NCBI RefSeq assembly: GCF_003711105.1
Contig: NZ_CP023865.1
Coordinates: 248,001 to 312,000 of the forward strand
DNA: 64,000 bases
DNA from: Actinoplanes teichomyceticus ATCC 31121
GTDB lineage: Bacteria; Actinomycetota; Actinomycetes; Mycobacteriales; Micromonosporaceae
Direction of reading: 5' to 3'
In this document: piece by piece, positions 4,623 to 55,832 of the stretch
Position numbering within the stretch: the first letter of the stretch is position 1
Layout: every line of letters begins with the position of its first letter
The notes under the pieces: generated by a model
The model's input: the letters and a program-made list of their open reading frames with translations, nothing else
Told to the model about the DNA's origin: nothing
Databases searched by the model: none
Made by a program: the position numbers and the translations under genes

Positions 4623-5318
4623 GTGACACGCGCAGATCTGGACAAGCAGCCGCACGAGGTCGCCGAGATGTTCGACGGCGTGGCCGAGCGGTACGACCTG
4701 ACCAACACCGTGCTCGCCTTCGGCCGGGACCGCGGCTGGCGCCGGGCCACCCGGGCGGCGCTCGGCCTGCGGCCCGGGGAGCGGGTCCTGGACGTCGGCG
4801 CGGGCACCGGCGTCTCCACCGATGAGCTGGGCCGGTCCGGGGCGTTCGCGGTCGGCGCGGACCTGTCGGTCGGGATGCTGCGGGCGGGCCGGCGGGTGCG
4901 GCCGGACGTGCCGCTGCTGGCCGGTGACGCGTTGCGGCTGCCGTTCCCGGACGCCACCTTCGACGCGGTGACCATCTCCTTCGCTCTGCGTAACGTGGTG
5001 GACACGGCGGCTGCGCTGCGTGAGTTCGGCCGGGTCACCCGGCCGGGTGGCCGGCTGGTGGTGTGCGAGTTCAGCACCCCGACGAACCGGGCGTTCCGGA
5101 CGGTCTACATGCAGTACCTGATGCGGTCGCTGCCGGTGGTGGCGCGTGGCGTGTCGAGCAACCCGGACGCGTACGTCTATCTGGCCGAGTCGATCCGGGC
5201 GTGGCCGGACCAGGCGGAGCTGGCCGGGCGGATCGCCGAGGCCGGGCCGTGGGACCGGGTCGGCTGGCGGAACATGACCGGCGGCGTCGTGGCGCTGCAC
5301 CGCGCGACCCGGCGCTGA
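4623..5318 (+). CDS. menG: demethylmenaquinone methyltransferase
   Basis: 231 aa class I SAM methyltransferase of the UbiE/MenG family; it methylates demethylmenaquinone to menaquinone at the membrane face. SAM motif I is VLDVGAGTG at about residues 56-64. UbiE signatures are [13 protein letters not shown] near the N-terminus, [21 protein letters not shown] and [16 protein letters not shown] at 4623 was chosen because it aligns with the MSRAALDK-type start I recall for mycobacterial MenG; the frame stays open upstream. The 3' end, including the stop region, is duplicated about 69 bp downstream and followed by a tandem array. It stands between mqnC and menJ. Confidence 0.94.
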
Positions 5319-5545
5319 TCACCAGCCGGGCGCGGGCACGCGGCGACGCTGGACTCCCGGTCGGTCATCAGGCGCGGCCCGCGTTGATCACCGGCCGGTC
5401 GCGGGCGTGCGGCGGGCGTCGGTTCCGGGTGGGGCGCGGGCGGCGGCGGGCGTCGGTTCCGGGTGGGGCGCGGGCGTGCGGCGGGCGTCGGTTCCGGGTG
5501 GGGCGCGAGCGCGCGGCGGGCGTCGGTTCCGGGCGGGGCGCGGGC
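5311..5545 (+). repeat. menG 3'-end duplication followed by 35-bp tandem array
   Basis: The menG stop region (CTGATCACCAGCCGG from 5315) recurs 69 bp later as TTGATCACCGGCCGG (from 5384), again with TGA. It is followed by four copies of a 34-35-bp unit whose core CGTCGGTTCC starts at 5417, 5451, 5486 and 5521. No protein-like reading frame covers the array. The remaining intergenic stretch to 5684 shows no other recognisable feature. Confidence 0.8.
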
Positions 5546-5684
5546 GGGATCCCGCGGTCCTGCGGACCCGTGCCGGAGGTCCGGCGGGAGGCGGCCGGAG
5601 GCCCGGGCTGATCAACTCGCGCGTGTCAGTGACAAAAGCGGCATTCGACGTACGGAATACGAATCGGCTGTTTAGCTCGAACTC

Positions 5685-5945
5685 ATGACAAAACTCGGGC
5701 ACCTCGACGACACCGACATCGACATCGCGATCGACGACGGCGAGGCTGGTGAACGGCGCGCCACCGAGCTGGCCAACCGCATCCGGATGGTCGCCGCGCA
5801 GGATCCGCTGCTCGCGCAGGACCTGGTAGAGGAACTGATTGTCGCGCTGGACCGGGCGATGGGCGGAACCATCCGAGACCACCTGGAGGGGCCGGCGCGT
5901 GGGATGGCAGAGCGCCTTTTGGGGGAATCTGACCCGATTCGTTAG
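5685..5945 (+). CDS. small acidic hypothetical protein
   Basis: 86 aa, acidic at the N-terminus (MTKLGHLDDTDIDIAIDDGE) and then predicted helical (RIRMVAAQDPLLAQDLVEELIVALDRAMG). No known domain, signal or membrane segment is seen. ATG at 5685 lacks a clear ribosome site. Local base use is less GC-rich than its surroundings. It stands alone between menG and menJ on the same strand, about 117 bp before the menJ start. It looks like a real soluble protein rather than a chance frame, but the function is unknown. Confidence 0.55.
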   Translation: MTKLGHLDDTDIDIAIDDGEAGERRATELANRIRMVAAQDPLLAQDLVEELIVALDRAMGGTIRDHLEGPARGMAERLLGESDPIR

Positions 5946-5998
5946 CCACGCCGAAACAAATAGCCCCACCTGCGCGCGAAGATCGTCGATAGTCGGCC

Positions 5999-6037
5999 TA
6001 GACTCCGATCGAGGCATGCTTGTGAACTAATTCACGA
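5999..6037 (+). promoter_or_regulatory. menJ promoter with Rex-type operator
   Basis: A -10-like TAGACT (5999-6004) is followed by TTGTGAACTAATTCACGA (6020-6037). That matches the Rex operator consensus TTGTGAA-N4-TTCACAA with a single mismatch. Rex is the actinobacterial NADH/NAD+-responsive repressor, reported in Streptomyces to control cydABCD, rex-hem and nuoA-N. The site covers roughly +9 to +26, a position suited to repression. It lies directly upstream of menJ and, through it, of nuoA-N. Site identity is read from sequence; binding is inferred. Confidence 0.7.
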
Positions 6038-6061
6038 GCACTGCGGATCGGAGGCTGCACC

Positions 6062-7354: not shown

Positions 7355-7402
7355 CGACGGAATCGGGCACCCCGACCAAAGGACTACAAAAGCGAAAAAC
7401 TA

Positions 7403-7420
7403 GTGTGAAGCGGCTAACAG
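7403..7420 (+). promoter_or_regulatory. degenerate Rex-like half site before nuoA
   Basis: GTGTGAAGCGGCTAACAG keeps 6 of 7 positions of the left Rex arm but only 4 of 7 of the right arm. It lies 17 bp upstream of the nuoA start in a short, relatively AT-rich gap that could also hold a promoter. Weak on its own; listed because a strong Rex-type site precedes menJ. Confidence 0.25.
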
Positions 7421-7436
7421 TCGTACGGGAGAGAAG

Positions 7437-7802
7437 ATGACGATCAACCCATACGTCCCGATCGTCGGGTTGCTGATCCTCGGCGCGCTCTTCGCGTTGT
7501 TCTCGGTGTCCGTCGCGCCGATCGTCGGACCGAAGCGCTACAACCGGGCGAAACTCGACGCCTACGAATGCGGCATCGAGCCGGCGCCGCAACCGGTCGG
7601 CGGCGGCCGGTTCCCGGTGAAGTTCTACCTGACGGCGATGCTCTTCATCGTCTTCGACATCGAGACCATCTTCCTGTACCCGTGGGCCGTCTCGTTCGAG
7701 GCGCTGGGCCTGTTCGGATTCGTGGAAATGGTCCTGTTCATCGTCACCGTCTTCATCGCCTACACGTACGTGTGGCGGCGTGGCGGCCTCAACTGGGACT
7801 GA
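7437..7802 (+). CDS. nuoA: NADH-quinone oxidoreductase subunit A
   Basis: 121 aa, three transmembrane helices (about residues 8-30, 62-84 and 91-111). It contains the loop YECGIEP, which carries the conserved cysteine near the quinone entrance, and [22 protein letters not shown]. It forms part of the membrane arm at the junction with the peripheral arm. GGGAGAGA precedes the ATG. First gene of the uninterrupted 14-gene nuo operon. Confidence 0.97.
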
Positions 7803-7807
7803 TAACC

Positions 7808-25241: not shown

Positions 25242-26036
25242 GTGCGTGACCCCCTAGCGGAGCCGTCAGATCTCATCCGGAGCGTGTCGCGTGCCCTGCG
25301 CGTCCTGGAGTCGGTCGGGCGGGCGCCACGCGGGCTCACCGTGAAACAGATCGCCCGGCGCTGCGAGCTGACCGTCGCGACCACCTATCACCTCGTGCGT
25401 ACCCTGGCCTACGAGGGTTACGTGATCCGGCGTGAGGACGGCACCTACATCGTCGGTCTGGAGATCGCCGACCGGTACCGCGAACTCGTCTCGGCGTTCC
25501 GCGGCCCGCCCGCCGTCGGTGAGGCGCTGCGCCGCGCCGCGCTCGACACCGGGTACAGCCACTACCTGGGCCGGTTCGTCGGCGGCCGGATCGCGGTCAC
25601 CGCCTCCGCCGAGGGCGCCCGTTCGCCGTTCCTGGATGACGTCGCGCCCGGCTTCGACGAGGGCGGGCACGCCACCGCGCTCGGCAAGGCGCTGCTCGCC
25701 ACGCTCACCCCGGACCAGCGGTCGCGGTACCTGCGCGACTACGGGATGCGTGCGTTCACCCCGTCCACGCTGACCACCCCGGAGGCGCTGGAGACCGATC
25801 TGGCCGCCGGTGAGCGGCGCGGCATGCAGATCGAGATGGGACAGTTCCGGCAGGGGCTGGCCTCGGCCGCGGTGGTGGTGGTGGCCGACCGCGACATGGA
25901 ACGGCGGCTGGTGCTGGCCTGCTCGATGCCGGCCGCCGAGATGCTCACCTCGGCGCGGGTGGTGCGAGCCAAGCTGACCGCCGCCGCGCGGAACGTGGCC
26001 GAGGCGCTGTCCGGTGGCGAGTCCGCCACCGCCTGA
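25242..26036 (+). CDS. IclR-family transcriptional regulator
   Basis: 264 aa. N-terminal winged helix (residues ~10-70) with GLTVKQIARRCELTVATTYHLVRTLAYEGYV, then the IclR effector domain (about 85-255) including HATALGKALLATL and QGLASAAVVVVADRDMERRL. GTG at 25242 follows CGGAGGTAG. The effector pocket motifs do not identify a ligand. No catabolic genes flank it, so a local target is not evident. Confidence 0.9.
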   Translation: MRDPLAEPSDLIRSVSRALRVLESVGRAPRGLTVKQIARRCELTVATTYHLVRTLAYEGYVIRREDGTYIVGLEIADRYRELVSAFRGPPAVGEALRRAALDTGYSHYLGRFVGGRIAVTASAEGARSPFLDDVAPGFDEGGHATALGKALLATLTPDQRSRYLRDYGMRAFTPSTLTTPEALETDLAAGERRGMQIEMGQFRQGLASAAVVVVADRDMERRLVLACSMPAAEMLTSARVVRAKLTAAARNVAEALSGGESATA

Positions 26037-26082
26037 CCCTCTCCGATCGTAGTTCCGCCGGCCGGCGGGAGGATCACGGTTC

Positions 26083-26260
26083 CGCCGCCCCGGTGGGGGT
26101 TGCGTCTTTCCGCCGCCCGGTGGGGGTTGCGTTTTTCGGCCGCCCGGTGGGGGTTGCGTTTTTCGGCCGCCCGGTGGCGGTAGCGTTTTTCCGCCGCCCG
26201 GTGGCGGTAGCGTTTTCCGCTGCTCGGGAACGGTGTCGTCGTTCCGCTGCTCGGGGACGG
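26083..26260 (+). repeat. 27-bp tandem repeat array
   Basis: Exact 27-bp periodicity: the GCGT core recurs at 26101, 26128, 26155, 26182 (as AGCGT) and 26209, with two degenerate copies (CCGCTGCTCGG at 26217 and 26244). The unit contains CCGCCCGGTGGGGGTTGCG plus a T-run. It fills the gap between the IclR gene and the anti-sigma gene. Because 27 is divisible by three, frames stay open on both strands, but the translations are mere 9-residue repeats. Confidence 0.85.
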
Positions 26261-26346
26261 TGTGAGTCACCGGATCGCTACAGCTTGAGGTGCGGCTTTA
26301 AGAGATATTTGAACCTCCGGGCCGGTTGCCGCGTACCAGAGTGCGG

Positions 26347-28016: not shown

Positions 28017-28190
28017 GCCTTCACCGTAGGGTCGGCCTCCGCCCGCGGCCTGTCGCCTATGTTTCACCTCACGAGGCCAATCGCCCCGAGCTGGCCTGCT
28101 CCGCGGTGCGCGGACCGGGTGGCCGTGGCGGCTCGGGCCGGGCCGGCCCCGGTGTGTGGATCGTTTCGGTAGCCGTGGGGCCCGGGTGTG

Positions 28191-28382
28191 TGCCTCAGTC
28201 GGGAACCGTGGCGGCCCGGACCCGTGCCGGCGGTGTGTGCCTCAGTCGGAACCGTGGCGGCCCGGACCCGCGTCGGCGGTGCGTGCCTCAGTCGTAACCG
28301 TGGCGGCCCGGACCCGCGTCGGCGGTGCGTGCCTCAGTCGGAACCGTGGCGGCCCGGACCCGTGCCGGCGGTGCGTGCCTCA
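28191..28382 (-). repeat. 46-bp tandem array made from the 3' end of the holin-like gene
   Basis: Four copies of a 46-47-bp unit; TGCCTCAGTC recurs at 28191, 28238, 28284 and 28330, and the fifth occurrence at 28376 runs into the true stop codon (TCA at 28380-28382) of the neighbouring minus-strand gene. Every copy carries that TCA, so the array repeats the gene end including its stop. Units differ by few substitutions. The rest of the 28068-28190 gap shows no feature. Confidence 0.85.
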
Positions 28383-28757
28383 GTCGTCGCCGTCCGGGAC
28401 GAGCATGTTGAGCACCCAGCTGACGATGCCGACGAGTAGCGCGCCGAGGACCGCGGACAGGAAGCCGTCGACGTGGAAGCCGAGCTCCAGCTCGCCGGCG
28501 ATCCAGCTGGTCAGCAGGAAGAGCAGGCCGTTCACGATCAGCGCCATCAGGCCGAGGGTGAGGATGTAGAGCCCGCAGCCAACCGTCTTGATGATCGGCC
28601 GCAGAACCGCGTTCACCAGACCGAAGATCGCCGCGACCGCCAGCAACGTGCCGGCCTTACCGGCCGAGGTGTCCGCGGAAAGCTCGATCCCGTCGATGAC
28701 CAGGGTCGTGATCCACAGTGAGATGGCCGTGATGACGAGCCGGATGATGATGCCCAT
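28380..28757 (-). CDS. holin-like small membrane protein (phage holin 4 superfamily)
   Basis: 125 aa with four hydrophobic helices: MGIIIRLVITAISLWITTLV, LLAVAAIFGLVNAVLRPIIK, LYILTLGLMALIVNGLLFLL and FLSAVLGALLVGIVSWVLNML. The motif NAVLRPIIK is typical of the mycobacterial/actinobacterial phage-holin-family membrane proteins, whose role is not lysis as far as known. ATG 28757 was chosen; an in-frame GTG lies at 28775. The 3' end is copied into the downstream array. Confidence 0.85.
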   Translation of the reverse strand: MGIIIRLVITAISLWITTLVIDGIELSADTSAGKAGTLLAVAAIFGLVNAVLRPIIKTVGCGLYILTLGLMALIVNGLLFLLTSWIAGELELGFHVDGFLSAVLGALLVGIVSWVLNMLVPDGDD

Positions 28758-32207: not shown

Positions 32208-32252
32208 ATACGCGTTGCGTTGGCTCAGTCGCACGCGTGGGGAGAGGTGGAC

Positions 32253-35200
32253 GTGTCCGAGTGGGAACCGGCTACGGACGCCGAGGTCGCGATGCGCGAT
32301 GCGCTGCGCACCGACGATCAGGAGTCCTATTTCCGCATTCTCGCCGGGGTCGATCTCCTGCTACCGGTGTCGGCCGACGCGCTGGCCGGTCTGGCCCCGC
32401 TCGGCTGGGGCACCTGGAGCACCGGCGGGCGCACCCATGTGCTGGCGTTCACCTCCCAGGAGGCGCTGCACGCATGCCTCTCCGACTACACCGGGTCGTC
32501 ACGCCGGGTTCCGTACACGGAACTGGCCAACACGTGGCCCAACCTTGAGTGGTGGCTGGCGGTCAACCCCGGCCTGCCGATCGAGGGCTACCTGCCGGCC
32601 TGGTTCGTCGCCCAGCTCGCGCGGGGCGATCTGCGGCTCCCCACCCGGGGGCCGGGCCGTGACGTGCACGGCACCTCCAAGATCCAGGAGCTGGGTGCGG
32701 CCGCGCTGGCGGCCAGCCGGGCCGGGGACGGTCCCGGCGGGCCCACCTATGACGCTCCAGCAGCCGCAGCGGCGGGATACCCGGTCCAGCCGGCCGGGAG
32801 CCCCGGCCTGCCCCCGCCGGGCGGATCCGCCGGTGCGACCGGCGTGCCGCAGCCCGGCCCGGGTCAGCCTGCCCGGCCCGCGATGACTCCGGCGGGCCTG
32901 CCGCAGCGCGGCGCGCCGCAGCCCGGTGCACAACCCGTTCCAGCGGTTGCCGCGCAGTCCGGTCCCGGCGGTATGCCCGCTCCGGGCCAGGCGAGCCTCG
33001 GCAGCGATGCCGGCTCCGCGCGCTCCGGTGCGGGCGGCGCGTTCGGCGGGTCCCAGGCCGGTCCCGGTGGAGCGTCCGGTTCCGCCGCGTTCGGTCCGGG
33101 TGGAGTGTCCGGTTCCGCCCCGTTCGGTCCGAGTGCCACGCCTGGTGCGTCTCAGTTCGGTCCGGGCGCTGCCGCACAGGGACCGTCCGGGCAGCCTGGC
33201 GACCTCCCGGTCCGCAGCCCCGGTGCGGGCGTGCCCGCCCGCTCGGCCACGCCGTCCGGTCTGCCGATGCGGACCGCGACCGCGTCGCCGGCTCAGCCCC
33301 CCGCAGCCGGGGACATGACCCGGGCGGAGCAGGTTCCGGCGGCGTATCCGGCATCCGGCTCCGGGCGGGACCTCCCGGGCTCACCCGCCGCTCCGGCGGC
33401 GTCCTCGGGACTGCCCACTCGTAGCTTGTCGGGCAGCGCCATGGCGACGCCCGGCTGGCATTCGGACTCGCTGCCCTTCGGACCGGAGAACGACCCGCGC
33501 GGGCCGCTGCAGGACCTGAATGCGCCGCTTCCGGTGCGCACCCCGATGGCGAACACGCCCCCGGTCCCCGAGCACGTCCGGCCGTATGACCCGGCCGAGG
33601 CGCTGGTCGATCCGGGGTGGGCGGCGCTCGGTGGCCGTCCCTCCAGCGCGGGCAGCGGCGGAGCGCCCGGAATGCCAGCAGCCGCGGGTGCCGATGCCGC
33701 TGGTGGCGCGAACACCGGCACGACGCCGCCGACCAGCCCCACGCTCGCTCGTGGCGGATCCGACCTGCCGCGCCGTCAGCCCGGGCAGACTGCCGGACCC
33801 AGCCAGACCACGTCCTTCTCCGGGTTCGCCAACGCCCGGACCAATCCAGCTCCGGCGGCCGCGCCGCGCTTCCCGCAGGGGCCGGCTTCGCCGCAGGCGG
33901 TGGCTGCGCAGCCCGCGCCGGCCTCGGGCGCGCCGGCTCCCGGCACGGCGAGCTCGTCGGGCGGCCCGGGCAGTCCGCTGCCCCGCCGCCAGGTGACCCC
34001 GCCGTCCGAGCGCCCGCCGTCGATGGCGGCCGCGGCGCAGGCGCTCACCGGTGGGCGTACGCCCGCTCCGGATCCCGGCCTCCCGCAGCGGGATGTTCCG
34101 CCAGCAGCGGACCGTTTCGGCCCGTCCGGTCCGGCTCCGTCGCTGCCTCGCTCCGACGGTGCGGCCGGCGGCGATCGGCCCGCGCCGAGCTCCCGGCCAG
34201 GGCTGCTCCCCCCGGTGATCCCCGGCGCTCCCGGTGCTGATCGCGGTGCGGGCGGTGCCATGGGGAGCGGTGCCATGGGCCATGCAGGTGGGGGTGCCGC
34301 GACCGGTGCGCCCGCGCCGGGCTACGGTCCCGGCACCACGGCGCCCGGCTACGGTGCGGCCGCGGCGGCCTTCAGTGCCGCGACGTCCGGTCTCGGCCCG
34401 GCCGCGAGCGGTTCTCCCACCGCGCCCGCCTACGGCTCGCCGGTTTCCGGTGCTGCCGCGCCGGGTCATCCGGTCTCCGGGGCTGCCGCGCCCGCTCACC
34501 CGGTGTCTGGCGCCGCTGCCCCTGGCCATCCGGTCTCCGGGGCGGCTGCCCCTGGCCATCCGGTGTCCGGGGCGGCTGCCCCCGGCCATCCGGTATCCGG
34601 GGCGGCTGCCCCTGGCCATCCGGTGTCCGGGGCGGCTGCCCCCGGCCATCCGGTGTCCGGGGCGGCTACGCCTGGCCATCCGGTCTCCGGGGCTGCGGGC
34701 TTCCCTGTCTCCGGACCCGCCAACCCGGCCGGAACCGCGCCCGCCGCTCCGGGCAGCCCGTCGTCGGCCTATCCGCCCCCGGGCGCCCCGTCGTCGGCCT
34801 ATCCCGTCCCGGGCGACCCTGCCCCGGGCAGTCCGACGTTCGGCGCTCCGACGTCCGGCGGTCCGACGGCGCATACGGCTGGGTCGAGCGCGGCCTACGG
34901 TGCGACGACTCCGGGTGCTGCGTCCGGGTACGGCACGGCCGGCGCGGGCTATGGACCGGCGGGGGCGTACGCGCCCACGGCGCCGGGCTACAGCGTTCCG
35001 GCGGTGCCCGCGCCCGGGCCGGCGTTCGGCATGCCGCCGCAGGGCAGCCCCGCGTCGGCGTACGCGAATCAGGCCTTGGCCACCCAGATCATCCAGCTTC
35101 CGGCCGGGTCGGTCCCGGCGAGCGCCGCGTCGGCATCCGGGAGTTCCGGCCTGGGGGTCGCCGGCTCGGCGACCGGCGGCGGCTCCGGCCCGGGGCAGCG

Positions 35201-36179
35201 CGGCCGTGCCCACGAGGAATTCGTCCCGGCCAATGACACCGAGCGGGAGCTGCGGGAGGCCGCGGACGCCGGCAACACCGACATCTTCCTCTCCACGCTG
35301 CTGCTGGCGAACGTGCTGGTGCCGGTGGCCCACCACTCCCGGCCGGGCAGTGCGCCCGGGGAGTCCGGCTTCGCGTTCCAGCCGGAGGAGGTTGGGGGCG
35401 AGAAGTTCCTGATCGTGTTCACCAGCAAGGACCGGCTCTCCGAGCACTTCGGTGAGCCGACCCGCACGGTCGGCGTCCGCTTCTACGAGCTGATCCGCAA
35501 CTGGCCGGACCCGGACTGGTCGTTCGCCGTCAACCCGGGCACCCCGGTCGGCGCGAAGTACCCGGGTGCCCAGATCATCGCGCTGGCCAACTGGGCCACC
35601 GAGGCCGGGCTCGGCGCCGACCCGATCGACGGGCCGTCCGCGGAGGAGACCGCCGAGCCGGTGCCGGCTCCGGAGCCGGCCAGCGACGAGACGCAGCACG
35701 CCACCGTCATGCAGAAGACGATCGCCGCCGAGCAGGTCGACTACTACCTGGAGCGCGGGTACGACCGAGTGGCCGGGTTCGTGCACCGGGCGTCCGAGGT
35801 CGAGCATCTGCGGACACCGGCTGAGCTGTTCAGCGCGCTCGGGCTGTACTACGACTCGTCGCCGTTCCAGCCGGACGCCAAGGAGGCGTTCGTGCTGCGC
35901 TGGCCCGCGTTCCGGCCCAGCCTGTACCGCATTCCCTACGGCGGGCAGAACGAGCAGGCGCTGCGCGCGATGGACGGCTGGGTGATCGAGCGGCCGCCGT
36001 TCCGGGGCAACGGGTTCGCCCCGGGCGAGGGCCGCGACGTCATCGCCGAGTTCAAGGTGGACAGCGTGCGGCTGCCGCACGGCGCGCAGCTGTGGCGCAT
36101 CGACGCGGACGGCAACGAACGCATGTTGGCGATCTTCGACGCGGACGGGCCGCTCTGGCGCCGGGTGGGTGAGCAGTGA
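32253..36179 (+). CDS. giant SseB-domain protein with ~830-aa low-complexity tether (ESX-associated)
   Basis: 1308 aa. Residues ~20-125 form an SseB-type domain (SYFRILAGVDLLLPVSADALAG ... WPNLEWWLAVNPGLPIEGYLP). Residues ~150-980 are Pro/Ala/Gly/Ser-rich, with short repeats such as AAPGHPVSG. Residues ~985-1125 hold a second SseB-type domain (DIFLSTLLLANVLVPV, then NWPDPDWSFAVNPGTPVG), sharing the WP..W..AVNPG signature with the first. The last ~165 residues are a further SseB-C-like domain ending RMLAIFDADGPLWRRVGEQ. GTG 32253 was chosen for its GGAGAGG ribosome site; TTG 32220 is in frame. It has no signal peptide or membrane helix, so it should be cytoplasmic. It follows the WXG100 pair and overlaps the next small gene, suggesting a role in the ESX island, perhaps scaffolding. 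This role is inference. Confidence 0.8.
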   Translation: MSEWEPATDAEVAMRDALRTDDQESYFRILAGVDLLLPVSADALAGLAPLGWGTWSTGGRTHVLAFTSQEALHACLSDYTGSSRRVPYTELANTWPNLEWWLAVNPGLPIEGYLPAWFVAQLARGDLRLPTRGPGRDVHGTSKIQELGAAALAASRAGDGPGGPTYDAPAAAAAGYPVQPAGSPGLPPPGGSAGATGVPQPGPGQPARPAMTPAGLPQRGAPQPGAQPVPAVAAQSGPGGMPAPGQASLGSDAGSARSGAGGAFGGSQAGPGGASGSAAFGPGGVSGSAPFGPSATPGASQFGPGAAAQGPSGQPGDLPVRSPGAGVPARSATPSGLPMRTATASPAQPPAAGDMTRAEQVPAAYPASGSGRDLPGSPAAPAASSGLPTRSLSGSAMATPGWHSDSLPFGPENDPRGPLQDLNAPLPVRTPMANTPPVPEHVRPYDPAEALVDPGWAALGGRPSSAGSGGAPGMPAAAGADAAGGANTGTTPPTSPTLARGGSDLPRRQPGQTAGPSQTTSFSGFANARTNPAPAAAPRFPQGPASPQAVAAQPAPASGAPAPGTASSSGGPGSPLPRRQVTPPSERPPSMAAAAQALTGGRTPAPDPGLPQRDVPPAADRFGPSGPAPSLPRSDGAAGGDRPAPSSRPGLLPPVIPGAPGADRGAGGAMGSGAMGHAGGGAATGAPAPGYGPGTTAPGYGAAAAAFSAATSGLGPAASGSPTAPAYGSPVSGAAAPGHPVSGAAAPAHPVSGAAAPGHPVSGAAAPGHPVSGAAAPGHPVSGAAAPGHPVSGAAAPGHPVSGAATPGHPVSGAAGFPVSGPANPAGTAPAAPGSPSSAYPPPGAPSSAYPVPGDPAPGSPTFGAPTSGGPTAHTAGSSAAYGATTPGAASGYGTAGAGYGPAGAYAPTAPGYSVPAVPAPGPAFGMPPQGSPASAYANQALATQIIQLPAGSVPASAASASGSSGLGVAGSATGGGSGPGQRGRAHEEFVPANDTERELREAADAGNTDIFLSTLLLANVLVPVAHHSRPGSAPGESGFAFQPEEVGGEKFLIVFTSKDRLSEHFGEPTRTVGVRFYELIRNWPDPDWSFAVNPGTPVGAKYPGAQIIALANWATEAGLGADPIDGPSAEETAEPVPAPEPASDETQHATVMQKTIAAEQVDYYLERGYDRVAGFVHRASEVEHLRTPAELFSALGLYYDSSPFQPDAKEAFVLRWPAFRPSLYRIPYGGQNEQALRAMDGWVIERPPFRGNGFAPGEGRDVIAEFKVDSVRLPHGAQLWRIDADGNERMLAIFDADGPLWRRVGEQ
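34440..34705 (+). repeat. 30-bp in-frame repeats in the SseB-protein tether
   Basis: About nine tandem copies of a 30-bp unit encoding the 10-residue peptide AAAPGHPVSG, with synonymous variation between copies. Shorter related repeats (SSAYPPPGAP) follow. Confidence 0.9.
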
Positions 36180-36578: not shown

Positions 36579-36840
36579 GCAGGATCCCCCGGTCGCCCCG
36601 GCCCGCGGGCCAGGCCGCGGTCTTCAATCAGTGCAGGATGCACCGGTGGTCCGCGGCCCGGGGTCTTCATTCGGCGCAGGATGCTCCGGTGATCCCCGAT
36701 CCGGGGTCCTCAGCCAGCGCAGGATCCCCCGGTGGGCCACGGCCCGGGGTCTTCAGTCGGCGCAGGATGCCCCGGTGATCCCCGATCCGGGGTCAGGCCG
36801 GGGTTTTCAGCCAGCGCAGGATCTCCCCGGTGACCACGTC
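36579..36840 (-). repeat. tandem degenerate copies of the hydrolase 3' end
   Basis: The core GCAGGAT occurs at 36579, 36633, 36676, 36719, 36762 and 36816, giving periods of 54, 43, 43, 43 and 54 bp. The last occurrence is inside the hydrolase gene (codons for EILRW). The earlier five are copies of its final ~43 bp lying outside the gene. For example, the block at 36611-36652 matches the gene end at roughly three quarters of positions. Confidence 0.85.
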
Positions 36841-44488: not shown

Positions 44489-44910
44489 GCTGTCGCGCCC
44501 GACGGAAGAGCCGGCGTCCCGTGCGGGGGCGCCGGCTGCGCGCGTCCGGACCGGGTTATCAAGCGTGCACCTGGGTCGTTGTCGACAGTCCAGCAACCTG
44601 GTGGCGATGATCCCCGTGACGGCGGAAGCACCACCTGCGGCGCAGGTCCCGTCGCAACGTGCCTGCCGTGGCTGATCGCGCGTGGGTTCCCGGTGGCCGT
44701 GCACGGGGCTCGATCATCCGGTCAACGCCGGGTTTCTCGTTGGCCCCGCACCTCCTTTCTACGCCGCCGCGGGCATGATCACCAGCGATCAGCCGGGCAA
44801 ATCCCGCGTTTCGCTATTACTCGGACCAATGCCATCCGCGCAGGTCGCTGTGTGGGCGGGTCGGGGCGGCGGACCGCCGGGCGGGGCGGCTGCCGCTTCG
44901 GGCCGCTGCC

Positions 44911-45037
44911 GGAAGCGGCGTCCCCTTTCCCGCCTGGCGCGCCGGTGGCGGAAGCGGCGTCCCCTTTCCCGCCTGGCGCGCCGGTGGCGGAAGCGGCGTC
45001 CCCTTCCCCGCTTCGCGCGCCGGTGGCGGAAGCGGAG
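44911..45037 (-). repeat. 39-bp tandem array downstream of the HAD gene
   Basis: GGAAGCGGCG recurs at 44911, 44950 and 44989, with a partial copy at 45028, an exact 39-bp period. The unit contains GGCGCGCCGGTGGCGG, which differs by one base from GGCGCGCCGGTGACGG inside the 3' end of the HAD gene (near 45124-45139), so it may derive from that gene end. The rest of the 44489-45104 gap holds nothing else I recognise. Confidence 0.75.
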
Positions 45038-45104: not shown

Positions 45105-45905
45105 TCAGGCGACCGCGGCCCGGGCGCGCCGGTGACGGCCGTAGAGGGCGACGCCGATGGCGACGCCGACGCCGACGCCGAGGGCGGCGGCGACCGGGAC
45201 CGCCGGGCGGTCCCGCAGGCGTTTGCCGAGGGCGATGGGGTGCCGGAATTCCAGTACGGGCCAGGAGCGCTCGATCGCGACGCGGCGCAGCGCCCGGTCC
45301 GGGTTGACCACGCTGGGATGGCCGACCGCCTCCAGCATCGGCAGGTCGCTGCTGGAGTCGGAGTAGGCGAAGCACTGACTCAGGTCGTAACCCCGGGTGG
45401 CGGCCAACTCCCGGATGCCGATCACCTTGGCCGGACCGGCCGAGTAGAACTCCACCTCGCCGCTGTAGCGGCCGTCGACGATGGCCATCCGGGTGGCGAT
45501 CACGTCGACGATGCCGAGCAGCGCACCGATCGGGCGGACCATCTCGTCACCGGACGCGGAGACCAGCACGACGTCCCGGCCGGCCGCCTGGTGCTCCGCG
45601 ATCAGCGCGGCGGCCTCGGCGTAGACATACGGATTGATCAGCTCGTTGAGCGTCTCGGCGACGATCTGCTGCACCTGCTCGACCCGCCAGCCCTTGCACA
45701 GCGTGGCGAGGTAGTCGCGGGTGCGGGCCATGGCCTGCTCGTCGGTGCCGCCGCCGAGCCGGAACATCAGCTGGGCATAGGCGGATTTCACCACGTCGCG
45801 GCGGTTGATCAGGCCATCCCGATAGAACGGCCGTCCGAAGGCCAGTGCGCTGGACTTGGCGATGACGGTCTTGTCGAGGTCGAAAAAGGCGGCGCTGGGG
45901 CCCAC
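45105..45905 (-). CDS. HAD-superfamily (SerB-like, IB) phosphatase with C-terminal hydrophobic segment
   Basis: 266 aa from GTG 45905. HAD motif I FFDLDKTVIAKSS, motif II VLVSASGDE, motif III/IV AYSDSSSDLPMLEAVG. A C-terminal hydrophobic stretch (VPVAAALGVGVGVAIGVAL) probably anchors it in the membrane. The class includes phosphoserine phosphatases and lysophosphatidic acid phosphatase-like proteins; the substrate is unknown. TACACT ends 8 nt before the GTG; an upstream in-frame start at 45926 exists. It is the positional counterpart of Rv3661, next to the 6C RNA. Confidence 0.88.
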   Translation of the reverse strand: MGPSAAFFDLDKTVIAKSSALAFGRPFYRDGLINRRDVVKSAYAQLMFRLGGGTDEQAMARTRDYLATLCKGWRVEQVQQIVAETLNELINPYVYAEAAALIAEHQAAGRDVVLVSASGDEMVRPIGALLGIVDVIATRMAIVDGRYSGEVEFYSAGPAKVIGIRELAATRGYDLSQCFAYSDSSSDLPMLEAVGHPSVVNPDRALRRVAIERSWPVLEFRHPIALGKRLRDRPAVPVAAALGVGVGVAIGVALYGRHRRARAAVA

Positions 45906-46078: not shown

Positions 46079-46084
46079 CGCGTC

Positions 46085-46207
46085 CCGTAGACCCCTCCGA
46101 TATGGCCCTCGGTGGCTGCGCCCCCCGCGGCCGCCGAGTTGATTCGGCTCGACCCCCCCGGAGCCGAATCCCAGGACGACCCCCGTCTCCCCCGACGGGG
46201 GTCGTTC
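46085..46207 (+). ncRNA. 6C small RNA
   Basis: Two successive hairpins with C-only or C-rich loops define the actinobacterial 6C RNA. Stem 1 is CTCGGTGGCTGCG (46108-46120) with CGCGGCCGCCGAG (46126-46138), allowing two G-U pairs, loop CCCCC. Stem 2 is GATTCGGCTC (46141-46150) with GAGCCGAATC (46161-46170), loop GACCCCCCCG. A terminator hairpin follows at 46176-46205. The location between the HAD (Rv3661-like) gene and the ssd gene is, as I recall, the same as that of M. tuberculosis 6C/B11. The 5' end is an estimate from the promoter. In mycobacteria it regulates replication and secretion-related mRNAs through the C-rich loops. Confidence 0.85.
46176..46205. terminator. terminator shared by 6C RNA and the STAS gene
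   Basis: ACGACCCCCGTC (46176-46187), loop TCCCCC, GACGGGGGTCGT (46194-46205), a perfect 12-bp stem. It ends the plus-strand 6C RNA and also lies 5 nt past the stop of the minus-strand STAS gene. Confidence 0.75.
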
Positions 46208-46210
46208 CCG

Positions 46211-46719: not shown

Positions 46720-46803
46720 GCGCCGGGTCGTCGGCGATTGCCCGGGCCGGGGCGGGCCGGGAGGTTGGGCGGGCCCGAACGTTCCTGCCCCCTGGAGACC
46801 GCG

Positions 46804-49031: not shown

Positions 49032-49987
49032 TCGCGGTGCTGATCGCCTGCCTGGCGGGCTGCACGGTGGTGATCGCCTGGCCGGGGGCGCGGGTGCTGG
49101 CCCGGCTCTCCGCCCCGGGTGACCGGCCGGCGATCGACCTGCGCCGGATGTTCCGGGTGCCTACAAATCTCGTGGCCGCCCCCGGCCGGCGTGCGGTCGG
49201 CGCGGTGGCCGGGGTCGCCGCGCTCGCCGGGCTGCTGCTGGGTGGGCCGGTGGCGGCCCTGGTCGGGGCCGTCTACGCCGGACTGGCGACGGCCGAGTGG
49301 GCGCGCCGGGTGGCGCGGAAGCGGGTCGCGGCCGGGCGGGCGGCCTCCCTGGACGGGTTGGCCGCGCTGGTGGCGGACCTGCGGGCGGGGTTGCCGCCGG
49401 TGCTGGCCGCCTCGTCCGCGGCTCCGGCCGGATCGCTCCCGGCCGCCTCTTCGCCAAGCGCCTGGACCGACCGGGCGCTGACCGCCCTCAGCGGTCGGGA
49501 GCCGAGCGTCCGGGCCGGGTGGGAGCCGGGTGCCTGGGCCGGTCCGGAGCCGGGAGGCTGGGCCGGGCCGGAGCCGGGAGGCTGGGCCGGTCCGGAGCCG
49601 GCTGCCTCGGCCGGTTCCGCTCCGGCCGGCGCTGCCGTGGCCGGTCCCGGGGACGGGCGCATCGCCCGGTTGACCGAGGCGGTCTGGCGGCTGGCCGAGC
49701 ACACCGGGGCGCCGGCGGCGGATCTGCTGGAGCGCATCGAGGCGGACGCCCGGGCCGCGGATCGCGCGGCGGCCTCGGCCGCCGCCCAGGCCGCCGGAGC
49801 GCAGGCGACAGCCTTGCTGCTGGCCGGATTGCCGGTGGGCGGAATCGGTCTGGGGTACGCGATCGGCGCCGATCCGCTGCAGATCCTGCTGCGTACGCCG
49901 GTGGGCGCGGCCTGCGCGGTCGCCGCGGTGCTGCTGCAGTGCGGTGGGCTGCGGTGGGCGCAGCGGCTCGTGGACGGACCGCGCTGA
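49028..49987 (+). CDS. tadB: Tad membrane platform protein TadB-like
   Basis: 319 aa with hydrophobic helices near the N-terminus (MIAVLIACLAGCTVVIAW), at ~58-95 and in the C-terminal third (ATALLLAGLPVGGIGLGYAIG, VGAACAVAAVLLQCGG). The cytoplasmic loop carries an in-frame repeat GWAGPEPG (three to four copies, 24-bp period, about 49520-49605), not expected in the family. It anchors the TadA ATPase. ATGA overlap with tadA. Confidence 0.85.
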   Translation: MIAVLIACLAGCTVVIAWPGARVLARLSAPGDRPAIDLRRMFRVPTNLVAAPGRRAVGAVAGVAALAGLLLGGPVAALVGAVYAGLATAEWARRVARKRVAAGRAASLDGLAALVADLRAGLPPVLAASSAAPAGSLPAASSPSAWTDRALTALSGREPSVRAGWEPGAWAGPEPGGWAGPEPGGWAGPEPAASAGSAPAGAAVAGPGDGRIARLTEAVWRLAEHTGAPAADLLERIEADARAADRAAASAAAQAAGAQATALLLAGLPVGGIGLGYAIGADPLQILLRTPVGAACAVAAVLLQCGGLRWAQRLVDGPR

Positions 49988-50241: not shown

Positions 50242-51143
50242 CCTTGGTGTTCCCGGCCGTGGCGGAGCCCTTGGCCGCCATCGGGACGCTGCTGCGGGGA
50301 CTGCGGGCCGGGTGCGGTGGGGAGCGACTCGGTGCGGTGGGGTGGTTTTCGGGCGGGCGGGGGTTGGGGTGGCTCGGCATGGTGGGGTGGTTCTCGCGTG
50401 GGCGCGGGTTGCGGTGGCTCGGCATGGTGAGGTGGTTTTCGGGCGGGCGCGGGTTGGGGTGGCCCGGCATGGCGGGCCGGTCTTCGCCGGTGCGCCGGTT
50501 GGAGCGGCTCGATGTGGCGCCCGGCGACACGCCGCCGCAAGGCCGGGGCGAGCGGCGGAAACAGGTGCTGCTCGCCGTGCTGGCCGGGCTTGCGGTGGCC
50601 GGGCTGGCCGGGGCCTGGTGGGGCGTGCCGGTCGGGGTGGCCGCCGGGATCGGGACCGAGCGCTTCCTGCGCCGCCGCGAGCCCGCCGAGATCCGGCGGG
50701 AGCGCCGGGACGCGTTGACCGACCTGCCGCTCGGCGCGGATCTGCTGGCCGCCGCGCTGCGGGCGGGCGCTCCGGTGGACCGGGCGGCGGCTGCGGTGGC
50801 CGACGCGCTGGGTGGCCCGCTCGGCGCCCGGATGCAGCGGACCGCCCGGTCCTTACGGCTCGGCGCGGGACCGGCCGAGGCGTGGGCACATCTGGCCGAC
50901 GTCACCGGGGCCGAGCGGCTGATCGCGGCGGCGGTGCGGTCGAGCGCGAGCGGTGGCGCGCTCGCGGGTGCGTTGGAGCGGCTCGCCGGGGACCTGCGGG
51001 CCGACCGCGCGGTGGCGGTCGAGGCCGCCGCGCAACGCGCCGGGGTGCTCATCGTGCTGCCGCTCGGCCTCTGCTTCCTGCCCGCCTTTCTGCTCGCCGG
51101 CCTGGTGCCGGTGCTGGTCGCCGTGCTCGGCGACGTGCTGTGA
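50232..51143 (+). CDS. tadC: Tad membrane platform protein TadC-like with repeat insertion
   Basis: 303 aa type II secretion F-type protein. The GspF signature region is ALTDLPLGADLLAAALRAGAPV ... AEAWAHLADVTGAERLIAAAV and the C-terminal helices are VLIVLPLGLCFLPAFLLAGLVPVLVAVLG. Near the N-terminus three copies of a 45-bp unit (peptide GRGLGWLGMVGWFSG-like, 50342-50480) separate the first hydrophobic segment from the second. The start is uncertain: ATG 50232 is used. Confidence 0.8.
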   Translation: MAVTLVFPAVAEPLAAIGTLLRGLRAGCGGERLGAVGWFSGGRGLGWLGMVGWFSRGRGLRWLGMVRWFSGGRGLGWPGMAGRSSPVRRLERLDVAPGDTPPQGRGERRKQVLLAVLAGLAVAGLAGAWWGVPVGVAAGIGTERFLRRREPAEIRRERRDALTDLPLGADLLAAALRAGAPVDRAAAAVADALGGPLGARMQRTARSLRLGAGPAEAWAHLADVTGAERLIAAAVRSSASGGALAGALERLAGDLRADRAVAVEAAAQRAGVLIVLPLGLCFLPAFLLAGLVPVLVAVLGDVL

Positions 51144-51190
51144 AACCCGTGGTGCGGCAGCGGGCCGCACCCGTGACCGAGGAGGACCAC

Positions 51191-51376: not shown

Positions 51377-51389
51377 GCGAGGTCGTGGC

Positions 51390-51758: not shown

Positions 51759-51768
51759 GGAGGGGGAG

Positions 51769-52119: not shown

Positions 52120-52201
52120 AGGCGCGCTCGCGTCGTCTCACGGAGACGCCGTTCCGTGGATCGGGCGGCTGTCCCGCAGGGGCCGATTTCCGTCAAGGAG
52201 G

Positions 52202-52480
52202 TGGGGTTACCCGCGCGGCGGTGGCTCTTCCGGCCGCGTCTGGTTGACGGCGGCGGTGGGTGGGGTCACCCGCGCGGCGGTGGCCCTTCCGGCCGCACCG
52301 GGTCGACGGCGACGGTGGAAGGGATTTCCCGCGCGGCGGTGGTTCCTTCCGCCGGGGCGGCGGTTTTCCCTGCGGTGGTTCCTTCCGCCGGGGCGGTGGC
52401 TTTGCCTGCGGTGGTTCCTTCCGCCGGGGCGGTGGCTTTGCCTGCGGTGGTTCCTTCCGCCGGGGCGGGTTTCTCCGCGG
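52202..52480 (-). repeat. 59-bp duplication of the helicase 3' end and 36-bp in-frame tail repeats
   Basis: CCCGCGCGG recurs at 52210, 52269 and 52328, a 59-bp period. The middle copy holds the real helicase stop (TCA, 52266-52268). The outer copy, outside the gene, carries an equivalent TAA (TTA, 52207-52209). The inner copy lies in the coding sequence. Further inside, a 36-bp unit encoding APAEGTTAGKAT repeats about four times (to 52480). Confidence 0.85.
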
Positions 52481-54872
52481 TGGCGGTCTCCTCCGGGGGG
52501 AGGGCGGCCAGGACGGTGTCCAGCACCCGTACGGCGCCCGGCTTGTCCAACGGGTTGTTGCCGTTGCCGCACTTCGGGGACTGGACGCAGGACGGGCAGC
52601 CCGCCTCGCAGGCGCACGCCGCGATCGCTTCCCGGGTGGCCCGCAGCCAGGCGGTGGCGGTGGCGAACGCCCGCTCGGCGAAACCCGCCCCACCGGGATG
52701 GCCGTCGTAGACGAAGACCGTCGGGGCACCGGTGTCCGGGTGACCGGCCGTGGACAGCCCACCGATGTCCCACCGGTCACAGGTGGCCATCAACGGGAGC
52801 AGGCCGATCCCGGCGTGTTCGGCGGCGTGCAGCGCGCCCGGCACGTCGGCCGGCTCCACCCCGGCGTCGTCCAGCGCCTGCGGCGACACGGTGAACCAGA
52901 CCGCCACCGTACGCAGCTCGCGCACCGGCAGGTCCAGCGGCTTGGTGTCGATCACCTCACCGCTGCCCAGGCGTCGCCGCTGGTACGACACCACCTGGCT
53001 GGTCACGTCCACCTCGCCGAGGAACAGGCCGACCGGTCCGGCGTCCACGTACGACCGCACGTTCACCACCGAGACGTCCGTCACGTCGCGGGCGTGCGTC
53101 GTCCAGTCCGGCTCCTCCTGGCGCACCAGGGCGATGGCGTCGTCCAGGTCCAGCTCGTCCACCACGTACGTGACGCCCTGGTGCAGGTACACCGCGCCGT
53201 CGTGCAGCATCACGTGCGAGGACCCGTGATCGACCGTGCCCAGCAGCCGCCCGGTCGACGACTCCACCACCGAGACCGGCGCGCCGCCGGTACCGCGCAG
53301 GTCCACGTCCGGCCGCCCGCGATGCGTCCAGTACCAGCCGGACGGCCGCCGCCGCAGCACCCCCTGCTCGGCCAGCGCCCGCACCGTCGCCCGCGCCACG
53401 TCGCCGCCGAAGAGCGCGAGGTCGGCGTCGGTGAGCGGCGCCTCGGAGGCGGCACAGCACAGCTGGGGTCCCAGGACGTACGGGTTGGCCGGGTCCAGCA
53501 CGGTCGCCTCCACCGGCCGTCCGAACAGCGCCTCCGGGTGGTGCACGAGATACGTGTCCAGCGGATCGTCCCGTGCGATCAGCACCGCGAGCGCCTCCCC
53601 ACCGGCCCGTCCGGCCCGTCCCGCCTGCTGCCACAGCGACGCCCGCGTGCCCGGCCAGCCGCAGATCAGCACCGCGTCCAGCCCGGCCAGGTCGACGCCG
53701 AGCTCCAGCGCGTTCGTCGAGGCCAGTCCGAGCAGCTCCCCGGAGAGCAACGCCCGCTCGATCGCCCGCCGGTCCTCGCGCAGGTAACCGCCCCGGTACG
53801 CGGCCACCCGCTCACCCAGCCCCGGCACCGCCTCGTCCAGCGACCGCCGGGTCAGCGCGGCCACCACCTCGGCGCCCCGCCGGGAGCGGACGAACGCGAG
53901 CGTGCGGATGCCGGCCACCACCGCGTCGGTGAGCAGGTCCGCGGTCTCGCGCAACGCCGACCGCCGGACCGGTGGGGCCTCCGCCGGCTCGGCGCCGGGC
54001 TCGGGCGGCAGCAGCGGCGGTTCCCACAACGCGAAGGTGACCGCCCCGCGCGGCGACGCGTCCTCGGTCACCGCGGTCACCGGCAGCCCGGTCAGCCGGG
54101 ACGCGCTGGCGGCCGGGTCGCCCGAGGTGGCCGAGGCCAGCACGAAGGTCGGGGTGGCGCCGTACCGGGCCGCCGTCCGGCGCAGCCGCCGCAGCACGTG
54201 CGCGACGTGCGAGCCGAACACGCCGCGGTACGCGTGACATTCGTCGATCACGACGTACGCGAGCCGGCGGAGCAGGGTGGCCCACCGCGCGTGCCCGGGC
54301 AGCACGCTGTGGTGCAGCATGTCCGGGTTGGTCAGCACGAACCTGGAGTGCTGCCGGATCCACTCGCGCTCCTCGCGCGGGGTGTCCCCGTCGAGCGTGG
54401 CCGGGCGTACCCCGTCGAGCCCGAGCCGGACCAGCGCGCGCAGCTGGTCGGCGGCGAGCGCCTTGGTCGGCGCGAGGTAGAGCACCGTGGCCCTGGGGTC
54501 GGTGGCCAGGGTGGTCAGCGCCGGCAGCTGATAGGCCAGGGACTTGCCGGACGCGGTGCCGGTGGCCAGCACCACGTGCGTCCCCTGCCGGGCCAGGGTG
54601 GCGGCGTCCGCCTGATGCTGCCACGGCGCGGTGATGCCCTGGCGCACGAGCGCGTCCCGTACGGCGGGGTCGGTCCACGCCGGCCAGGGCGCGGTCCGCC
54701 CGGGCCGGGCGGTGACCTGCTCGACGTGGGTGATCGGCGACTGTGCCGCGGCGCCGGTCCGGGTGCGCAGCCGGTGCAGCAGCTCAGCGGGACCGAAGGC
54801 GGTGGCAGTCACGCCCTGCACTTTGACATCGGTATGCGCCCGGCCCCAAACGGGTAGGACGGTGGGTGCCAC
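52266..54872 (-). CDS. DECH-box helicase of the actinobacterial secretion neighbourhood
   Basis: 868 aa superfamily 2 helicase. Motif I ATGTASGKS, motif II VIDECHAYRG (DECH), motif III LASATSGD, motif VI QQAGRAGRAGG. The C-terminal DUF1998-type region has a Cys cluster (ACACEAGCPSCVQSPKCGNG) that may bind metal. Related MrfA-type enzymes repair DNA. It is the standard neighbour of ssd/tad genes in actinobacteria, though a functional link is unproven. The C-terminus ends in ~60 residues of Ala/Glu/Thr/Lys repeats. The start is uncertain: GTG 54872 or GTG 54821. Divergent from the BldG-like gene, as in Streptomyces. Confidence 0.9.
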   Translation of the reverse strand: MAPTVLPVWGRAHTDVKVQGVTATAFGPAELLHRLRTRTGAAAQSPITHVEQVTARPGRTAPWPAWTDPAVRDALVRQGITAPWQHQADAATLARQGTHVVLATGTASGKSLAYQLPALTTLATDPRATVLYLAPTKALAADQLRALVRLGLDGVRPATLDGDTPREEREWIRQHSRFVLTNPDMLHHSVLPGHARWATLLRRLAYVVIDECHAYRGVFGSHVAHVLRRLRRTAARYGATPTFVLASATSGDPAASASRLTGLPVTAVTEDASPRGAVTFALWEPPLLPPEPGAEPAEAPPVRRSALRETADLLTDAVVAGIRTLAFVRSRRGAEVVAALTRRSLDEAVPGLGERVAAYRGGYLREDRRAIERALLSGELLGLASTNALELGVDLAGLDAVLICGWPGTRASLWQQAGRAGRAGGEALAVLIARDDPLDTYLVHHPEALFGRPVEATVLDPANPYVLGPQLCCAASEAPLTDADLALFGGDVARATVRALAEQGVLRRRPSGWYWTHRGRPDVDLRGTGGAPVSVVESSTGRLLGTVDHGSSHVMLHDGAVYLHQGVTYVVDELDLDDAIALVRQEEPDWTTHARDVTDVSVVNVRSYVDAGPVGLFLGEVDVTSQVVSYQRRRLGSGEVIDTKPLDLPVRELRTVAVWFTVSPQALDDAGVEPADVPGALHAAEHAGIGLLPLMATCDRWDIGGLSTAGHPDTGAPTVFVYDGHPGGAGFAERAFATATAWLRATREAIAACACEAGCPSCVQSPKCGNGNNPLDKPGAVRVLDTVLAALPPEETATAEKPAPAEGTTAGKATAPAEGTTAGKATAPAEGTTAGKTAAPAEGTTAAREIPSTVAVDPVRPEGPPPRG

Positions 54873-54930
54873 GCGTCGCCCGATGTCGGTCGGTGGTTAG
54901 ATTCGCGGGGGAGATCAGGGAGGAGGACCG

Positions 54931-55287
54931 ATGGAGCTGTCGCTGGCGACCCGGACCGTCGCCGAGCACACGGTGCTCGAAGTCGGTGGCGAGGTCGACG
55001 TTTACACCGCTCCCCGGCTGCGTGAGCGGCTGATCGAGCTGGTCGACGCGGGTGCCCGGAACGTGGTGGTGGACCTGGAGCGGGTCGAGTTCCTCGATTC
55101 CACCGGCCTCGGGGTGCTGGTCGGCGCGCTGAAGCGGCTGCGCACGGCGCAGGGCACCTTCGGCCTGGTCTGCGCCAAGGAGCCCCTGCTCAAGATTTTC
55201 CGGATCACCGCGCTGGACCAGGTGTTCCCGATCTACCCGACGGTCGAGGCCGCCACCGAACGCGACGGCACCGGTCCCGCTTCGTGA
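54931..55287 (+). CDS. bldG: BldG-type anti-anti-sigma factor (STAS)
   Basis: 118 aa STAS protein. The phosphorylation motif is [17 protein letters not shown] and the start [20 protein letters not shown] is nearly that of Streptomyces BldG. BldG controls development and antibiotic genes by partner switching. GGAGGAGGA precedes ATG 54931. Divergent from the DECH helicase and overlapping an ATP-binding-like partner gene, the same arrangement I recall for SCO3548-SCO3550. Confidence 0.92.
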
Positions 55288-55724
55288 TGGCTACGGTTCG
55301 GCTGTCCTTCTCGCCGGCGCCGGTGCACGTGCGCACCGCGCGGCTGGTCGGTGTGGCGGTGGCCCGCCGGGCCGGGGTCGACGAGGCCCTGCTCGACGAG
55401 GTCCGCCTGGCGATCGGCGAGGCCTGCACCCGGGCGGTCGCCCTGCACCGCCAGTACGGCCTGACCGACCTGGTCACCGTGGAGATGTCCGACTCGGGGG
55501 CGTACACCGTCCGGGTCATCGACCACGCGCCGATCGAGGCCAGCATCGGCCTCACCAAGCTTCCCCCGGACGAGCTGGCCGCCGAGTCGCTCACCGAGGA
55601 CGATCTCACCACCGGCGTGGGGTTCGCGCTGCTCGCCGGGTTCGTCGACGATCTGCAGGTGCGCCCGGTCGAGGACGGGCCGGGCACCGAGGTCCGCATG
55701 GTCTGGCCGGTCGCCCGCCGCTGA
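55287..55724 (+). CDS. RsbW-like anti-sigma factor with degenerate ATP site
   Basis: 145 aa GHKL-ATPase-like fold. N-box region LAIGEACTRAVALH (residues 42-54) has Arg49 where RsbW-type kinases have the Mg-binding Asn. The G1 box reads VIDHAP instead of D-x-G-x-G. A G2-like GVGFALLAGFVDDL is present. It likely still binds BldG but may not phosphorylate it. The start (ATG 55287 or GTG 55284) overlaps the bldG stop. The last codons and the stop are repeated in the array downstream. Confidence 0.8.
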   Translation: MATVRLSFSPAPVHVRTARLVGVAVARRAGVDEALLDEVRLAIGEACTRAVALHRQYGLTDLVTVEMSDSGAYTVRVIDHAPIEASIGLTKLPPDELAAESLTEDDLTTGVGFALLAGFVDDLQVRPVEDGPGTEVRMVWPVARR

Positions 55725-55832
55725 CGGCGCCCCGCCCGCCGCTGACGGCGCCCCGCCCGCCGCTGACGGCGCCCCGCCCGCCGCTGACGGCGCCCCGCCC
55801 GCCGCTGACGGCGCCCCGCCCGCCGCTGACGG
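55711..55832 (+). repeat. 21-bp tandem array including the stop codon of the RsbW-like gene
   Basis: The gene end GCCCGCCGCTGACGGCG is repeated with exact 21-bp spacing. CTGACGG occurs at 55721 (the true stop), 55742, 55763, 55784, 55805 and 55826. Copies are almost identical, suggesting recent expansion. From 55833 to about 56290 the region has lower GC towards the hppA promoter and no gene. Confidence 0.92.

Follow-up and report, generated by a model that had tools for sequence, protein, structure and literature searches.

The window analysed here is a stretch of 64,000 bp (bases 248001 to 312000) from the single-contig genome of Actinoplanes teichomyceticus ATCC 31121 (8,287,152 bp), in which short tandem arrays adjoin or overlap the ends of several genes (Table 1). 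Tandem Repeats Finder (TRF) recovered all six of the arrays that a preliminary description of the sequence had named. The gene names are backed by domain searches, which returned a ubiE/COQ5 methyltransferase (the menG-like gene), an IclR regulator, a PF04020 holin-like protein, an alpha/beta hydrolase, a HAD protein, a DEAD helicase with an MrfA Zn-binding domain and a histidine-kinase-like ATPase (the RsbW-like gene). One array (34440 to 34693) is probably coding, though our simple gene caller left it intergenic; an SseB domain lies near the end of the open frame that contains it.

Table 1. Tandem arrays of the window (positions counted from its first base).
Array	Position	Strand	Unit and placement	TRF
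menG-like gene (4533-5318), 3' array	5302..5546	+	69-bp unit with stop, then 35-bp units	5372-5546 (69/35 bp)
IclR-type regulator gene (25242-26036), 3' array	26080..26261	+	27-bp unit, 43 bp past gene; absent from the preliminary description	detected
PF04020 holin-like gene array	28144..28386	-	46-bp unit and adjoining 34-bp stretch, across stop (28380)	28185-28386 (46 bp x 4.4)
SseB-domain open frame array	34440..34693	+	30-bp unit, 8.5 copies, inside frame 32220-36179	detected
Alpha/beta hydrolase gene array	36579..36840	-	43/86-bp unit, from last ~44 coding bases, in convergent gap	36615-36794
HAD gene (45105-45905) array	44902..45035	-	39 bp x 3.4, begins 69 bp past stop; stop region not copied	detected
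G-rich array	50336..50511	+	45-bp unit, 348 bp behind gene ending at 49987; absent from the preliminary description	detected
Helicase gene stop array	52200..52351	-	59-bp unit across stop (52266); joined to the 52336-52468 array	detected
Helicase C-terminal tail array	52336..52468	-	36-bp (12-codon) unit, within called CDS 52266-54821	detected
RsbW-like gene array	55712..55832	+	21 bp x 5.8, 100% match; first copy includes the gene's last 13 nt with TGA	detected

Other features of the window include 36-bp repeats with Lys/Ala-type codons (63276 to 63407, + strand) at the end of gene 60591-63422. The C-terminal tail of the helicase, an MrfA/HRQ1-like protein, consists of 12-codon repeats here, and the end of this gene in a relative (G010) is crossed by a different array, with units of 42 bp. 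An open reading frame of 86 amino acids (5685 to 5945, + strand), between menG and the next called gene, is well conserved in an alignment of the relatives G010, G014 and G016 and is probably a real small gene missed by the gene caller; a Pfam search with it gave no match. The sole Rfam match at gathering threshold in the window is a 6C RNA (46138 to 46210, + strand).

We scored the copying of gene ends by local alignment, with random pieces of the window as the null. The preliminary description had read five arrays (menG, holin-like, hydrolase, helicase and RsbW-like) as copies of the end of the adjoining gene, and alignment to the gene end or to a segment around its stop bears this out. The coding end of the hydrolase gene is found in its array with 39 of 43 nt identical (score 52; null 99%, 31), and that of the helicase gene with 45 of 51 nt (score 72; null 99%, 27). 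For menG, the coding end alone scored 16, not above chance, and it is the stop-centred segment (5302 to 5345) that is copied, with TGA, at 37 of 44 nt (score 49; null 99%, 26; equalled by 1 of 500 random pieces). The holin-like array similarly matches across the stop at 36 of 37 nt (score 69; null 99%, 28; equalled by 3 of 500 random pieces); the copy includes merely the last seven bases of the gene, TGA among them, and the coding end alone scored 18, below the null. At the RsbW-like gene, the last 13 nt including TGA are repeated exactly, with a score of 26 that lies between the 95% and 99% points of the null. The further claim that the stop codon usually lies inside the units stood for four of these five arrays. 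The exception is the hydrolase array, whose copy breaks off 5 nt before the gene is complete and thus carries no stop codon. The helicase copy ends 2 nt before the gene end, and the first copy of that array reads TAA at the position of the gene's TGA. The HAD array, put forward as a possible sixth case, did not hold up: its stop-centred segment has no copy in the array (score 13), which begins past the stop altogether, and the resemblance found was a 19-nt stretch within the coding end that matches the array at 17 of 19 nt (score 28; null 99%, 26).

Arrays of this kind are abundant in a sample of the genome. We sampled 60 stretches of 20 kb, which together with the window make up 1.264 Mb of 8.29 Mb (7,550 N), predicted genes by means of a simple trained model and then ran TRF; the caller misses some genes, such as those at 5685-5945 and 32220-36179. 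Between called genes, the sample holds 153 arrays at a score of at least 80 and 101 at a score of at least 150 (80 per Mb), and these strong arrays account for ~8% of the sequence there. By comparison, five rounds of Markov-simulated intergenic DNA gave 0 arrays each, against 148 (at least 80) and 98 (at least 150) in the real intergenic pieces. The megabase between 4 and 5 Mb, roughly opposite the contig start, has the highest array density (214 per Mb versus 50 to 121 in the other bins); one sampled stretch within it holds 12 arrays, several of them perhaps in uncalled coding frames.

The arrays have the head-to-tail units of about 10 to 100 bp by which minisatellites, or VNTRs, are recognized. 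Among 129 arrays with scores of at least 120, the median unit is 43 bp (5 to 95% range, 18 to 88), the units are G+C-rich and the copies are often decayed, with a median match of 91%. The units are mostly unrelated to one another. The preliminary description had argued from differing unit lengths that the arrays arose by independent events and are no single dispersed element, and the all-versus-all comparison agrees: it gave just 11 similar pairs, involving 19 arrays (null 2, 0 and 2), and the remaining 110 match no other. Note that the period is divisible by 3 in 70 of 71 arrays that lie wholly in genes, and also in 67 of the 129 arrays classed as intergenic, where one third would be 43. Some 'intergenic' arrays must therefore sit in coding frames missed by the caller, and for this reason the position test described below was repeated without periods divisible by 3.

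Arrays avoid starts and are common behind stops. The position tests used 124 arrays with scores of at least 120 and took proximity as within 60 bp. By this measure 57 arrays lie near a stop, against 24.3 ± 4.4 at random placement, and 13 near a start, against 25.1 ± 4.4; one of the 124 spans a start. Per intergenic kb, arrays with scores of at least 150 number 0.71 in convergent, 0.48 in tandem and 0.18 in divergent gaps. The claim that arrays prefer gene ends is thus upheld against a naive null, but the bias is mostly explained by avoidance of coding DNA and starts. A start-free null, in which each array moved at random within its own gap while its midpoint stayed at least 100 bp from any start, placed 52.5 ± 3.4 arrays near stops; 12% of replicates reached 57, and 11.0 ± 2.7 were expected near starts where 13 were observed. 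A same-gap null without the start exclusion gave 45.5 ± 3.8 near stops (0.4% of replicates reach 57), and one with the whole array inside the start-free gap gave 48.4 ± 3.2 (0.2% reach 57). The latter is the strongest result in favor of the earlier idea of an end-directed process; we weigh it less because it rules out overlap with coding DNA, although real arrays do overlap it. A mild residual preference for gene ends may remain.

Beyond the start-free null, several results fail to support a process aimed at stop codons, of the kind that the preliminary description had suggested. Among 153 arrays with scores of at least 150, stops are spanned 19 times (null 20.3) and starts twice (null 21.4). 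In gaps of up to 800 bp, and leaving aside everything closer than 200 bp to a start, arrays cover ~7% of the 15 bp immediately past a stop versus 21 to 22% of the bases at 60 to 150 bp; because coverage at the stop is lower than at 60 to 200 bp beyond it, the stop itself is not the center of the arrays. Furthermore, resemblance to gene ends is largely a property of arrays that overlap them. Of 23 array-gene pairs with an array overlapping the stop, 17 exceed the 99% null for similarity to the gene end, and the 3 of 3 with an array overlapping a start resemble the gene start. Arrays that begin after the stop seldom resemble the gene end (5 of 86 pairs above the 99% null, ~1 expected), with 2 of 26 at 0 to 30 bp, 2 of 40 at 30 to 100 bp and 1 of 20 at 100 to 200 bp.

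The arrays turn over between species. We compared the syntenic region in five relatives (G010, G014, G016, G017 and G006), considering arrays with scores of at least 100 within 400 bp of a gene end and counting a convergent array once per gene. In 45 comparisons of gene ends that carry an array here, 39 relatives had no array at this score and the other six had one of a different period. Lowering the score to 60 added one further weak array, of 23 bp x 2.0, at the holin-like end in G016, and even at this cutoff the menG and RsbW-like gene ends had no array in any of the five. Several sites in relatives are nearly empty. The gap behind the IclR gene, 340 bp here with its 182-bp array, measures 150, 152, 192, 64 and 326 bp in G010, G014, G016, G017 and G006, all without an array. 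Likewise, the stops of the convergent pair 36541/36793 are 251 bp apart here, in a gap made up largely of copies of the hydrolase's own end; they abut in G014 (0 bp), and 20, 23 and 41 bp separate them in G016, G017 and G006. In G010 they are 197 bp apart, with an unrelated 25-bp x 7.9 array between them. G010 also has, at the holin-like end, its own 16-bp stop-containing array together with 40-bp and 35-bp arrays, and the syntenic stretch of G016 has five arrays with scores of at least 100 behind genes that have counterparts in the window. Within the window, the fraction of bases that can be aligned is 0.88 at starts and 0.45 beyond 200 bp, falls from 0.64 just behind stops to 0.29, and is 0.12 in arrays. 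This pattern of conservation, high before starts and low behind stops, mirrors the placement of the arrays.

Richness in intergenic arrays varies among the genomes compared. The six other genomes were represented by 200-kb samples each, which resolve coarse differences only. At scores of at least 150, intergenic arrays number 80 per Mb in our genome, 65 in G010, 85 in G017, 15 in G016, 15 in G029 (same order), and 10 in each of G046 and G066 (same class). The contrast shrinks at the looser cutoff of 80 (121, 90, 135, 45, 35, 80 and 70 per Mb, in the same sequence). When all arrays with at least four copies are counted, G066 has 70 per Mb versus 45 in our genome; the arrays of G066 are mostly genic (24 in genes, 14 between). 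An approximation of our own to a published satellite search returned 70 per Mb here, 20 in G046 and 50 in G066. Among draft loci, which probably give undercounts, we found 33 arrays per Mb (score at least 150) in 33 loci of the Actinoplanes group and 24 per Mb in 47 Micromonospora loci. Tandem gaps of the Actinoplanes-group loci have 14 arrays (score at least 100) nearer to stops versus five nearer to starts. At scores of at least 80, arrays span eight stops and five starts in G066, and two stops and two starts in G046. Two candidate causes of repeat richness were rejected. Loss of NucS mismatch repair fails because NucS was found in 30 of 30 genomes searched, our own included, and differences in AAA_23, a family that we take to be SbcC/RecF-like, fail because the broad family is present in 60 of 60 genus members.

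We consider these arrays to be independently born intergenic minisatellites that grow and are lost by slippage or unequal exchange and are kept where they do no harm, a reading to which we assign a probability of roughly three in four. We infer that slippage or unequal exchange supplies the mutational step and that selection acts as the filter. A chance short tandem duplication, through slippage during replication or through exchange involving short repeats, would produce two copies, which more slippage or unequal exchange could expand into an array; arrays would later decay or vanish, quicker than species diverge. Their birth would be largely indifferent to genes. Selection would then clear arrays from coding DNA and from ~100 bp upstream of start codons, leaving as their main niche the poorly conserved DNA that runs from a stop to the following promoter. 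Where a duplication straddles a stop, the first copy would still terminate the protein properly; the protein is unchanged because the first stop stays in place, and such a duplication would be silent, with an array that looks like a copy of the gene end. At a start, by contrast, a straddling duplication would create rival start signals and be weeded out. The asymmetry between the two ends of genes, with stops spanned 19 times and starts twice, would follow because the one duplication is silent and the other adds start signals. The periods divisible by 3 of nearly all arrays within genes are consistent with the same filter.

Several observations count against selective tolerance as described above, and some of them favor mutation directed at gene ends. 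Under this alternative, duplication would be promoted where transcription terminates, by stalled RNA polymerase, R-loops or conflicts with replication. It can also be put as an addition to selective tolerance, with transcription termination mildly raising tandem duplication behind genes, so that 3' ends are hot spots that independently seed minisatellites, some with a stop codon. We regard either form as rather unlikely. Among the 60 arrays whose period is not a multiple of 3, 33 lie near stops against 27.3 ± 2.5 expected (2% of replicates reach 33). Array edges crowd into the first 15 bp after stops (12 versus 5.1 ± 2.2, in a null that keeps starts in), and coverage peaks 60 to 200 bp past stops even at least 200 bp from starts. 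At that distance from starts, coverage is 0.10 to 0.11 in divergent gaps, a figure drawn from just 3 to 6 divergent arrays, versus 0.20 to 0.26 at 60 to 200 bp from a stop; a small sample of G010 and G017 gave no steady pattern. In two species, separate arrays span the stop of the holin-like gene. Also counting against selective tolerance, two comparisons outside the genus gave no stop bias: tandem gaps of the 47 Micromonospora loci (13 arrays near stops versus 16 near starts, score at least 100) and G029, with 0.50 arrays per kb in divergent gaps (four arrays) versus 0.53 in convergent ones (three). Against end-directed mutation, the bias of the whole set is explained once coding and start-proximal DNA are excluded, and the mean GC and AT skews of the 124 arrays relative to gene direction are ~0. 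In addition, the sharing of array-bearing gene ends among relatives is not beyond chance when pooled (Fisher P = 0.10), although G010 alone gave P = 0.04.

It is improbable that the arrays are functional, for example as terminators or structural spacers favored by selection at the ends of genes. Their placement behind genes would suit such a role. A four-tract G-quadruplex motif is present in 14 of 129 arrays (mean length 164 bp) versus 10 of 276 intergenic pieces of 150 bp taken from outside arrays, an excess that may stem from repetition itself, and fold z-scores below -2 occur in 17% of 76 arrays versus 11% of 130 array-free flanks. However, mean fold z-scores are nearly equal (-0.59 in arrays and -0.42 in flanks), and we rejected a terminator or structural role on the ground that the folding of arrays is not clearly different from that of array-free flanks. 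The mostly unrelated units and the 39 of 45 orthologous ends without an array likewise speak against function.

An artefact of assembly or annotation is more doubtful still. Arrays are hard to assemble and the gene caller does miss genes (the 86-amino acid frame and the SseB frame among them), but the genome is a single contig, the copies are imperfect, and arrays are also present in the single-contig relatives G010 and G017. The least credible alternative is a dispersed mobile family that expands after insertion, in the manner of MIRU, which are one sequence family: the 11 weakly similar pairs, and three other places in the genome that match the menG array at 74 to 78%, are outweighed by the 110 arrays that match no other and by the hydrolase and helicase arrays, which are built from their own gene ends.

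The closest kin of these arrays are the tandem repeats of Borgs and the VNTRs of mycobacteria, and this genome is a repeat-rich case of a known minisatellite type. In Borgs, which are extrachromosomal elements of Archaea, the tandem repeats are described as perfect and A-rich in passages of PMC9879509. Ours resemble them in having units unique to their locus and of independent origin, in fast turnover and in occasional overlap of ORF ends; unlike them, our copies are often decayed, G+C-rich, with an AT skew of ~0, and located on a bacterial chromosome. As set out in parts of PMC2734929, the Mycobacterium tuberculosis VNTR between rnc and fpg1 begins 40 bp after the stop, in a gap that measures 1 to 54 bp in species outside the complex; it extends up to the start codon that follows, and expression correlates with its length. 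Some of the arrays here similarly lie behind stops, in gaps that are shorter in relatives, whereas starts are avoided. The MIRU of mycobacteria appear mobile and insert at start codons, according to a passage of PMC12548453. Our arrays share with them the form of short intergenic repeats in an actinobacterium, but have mostly unrelated units that lie behind stops, with 1 of 124 spanning a start. Unique, unrelated non-coding satellites are scattered in the genomes of Methanobrevibacter ruminantium and Clostridioides difficile, as reported in passages of PMC6749651, and the arrays here are comparable, though the search criteria differ; the main text of that paper makes no mention of Actinoplanes, and its passages on satellites give no position relative to stops. 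Our searches of the open-access literature returned no paper on stop-codon or intergenic tandem repeats in Actinoplanes.

Given the ~8% of intergenic DNA that arrays cover in our sample and the turnover between species seen in the window, our findings indicate that intergenic gaps in this organism grow and shrink by the birth of minisatellites. If this is true more widely, the arrays would provide strain-typing markers for Actinoplanes, and short-read drafts may lose such stretches. They would also provide a natural experiment on whether the ends of transcripts make duplication more frequent.
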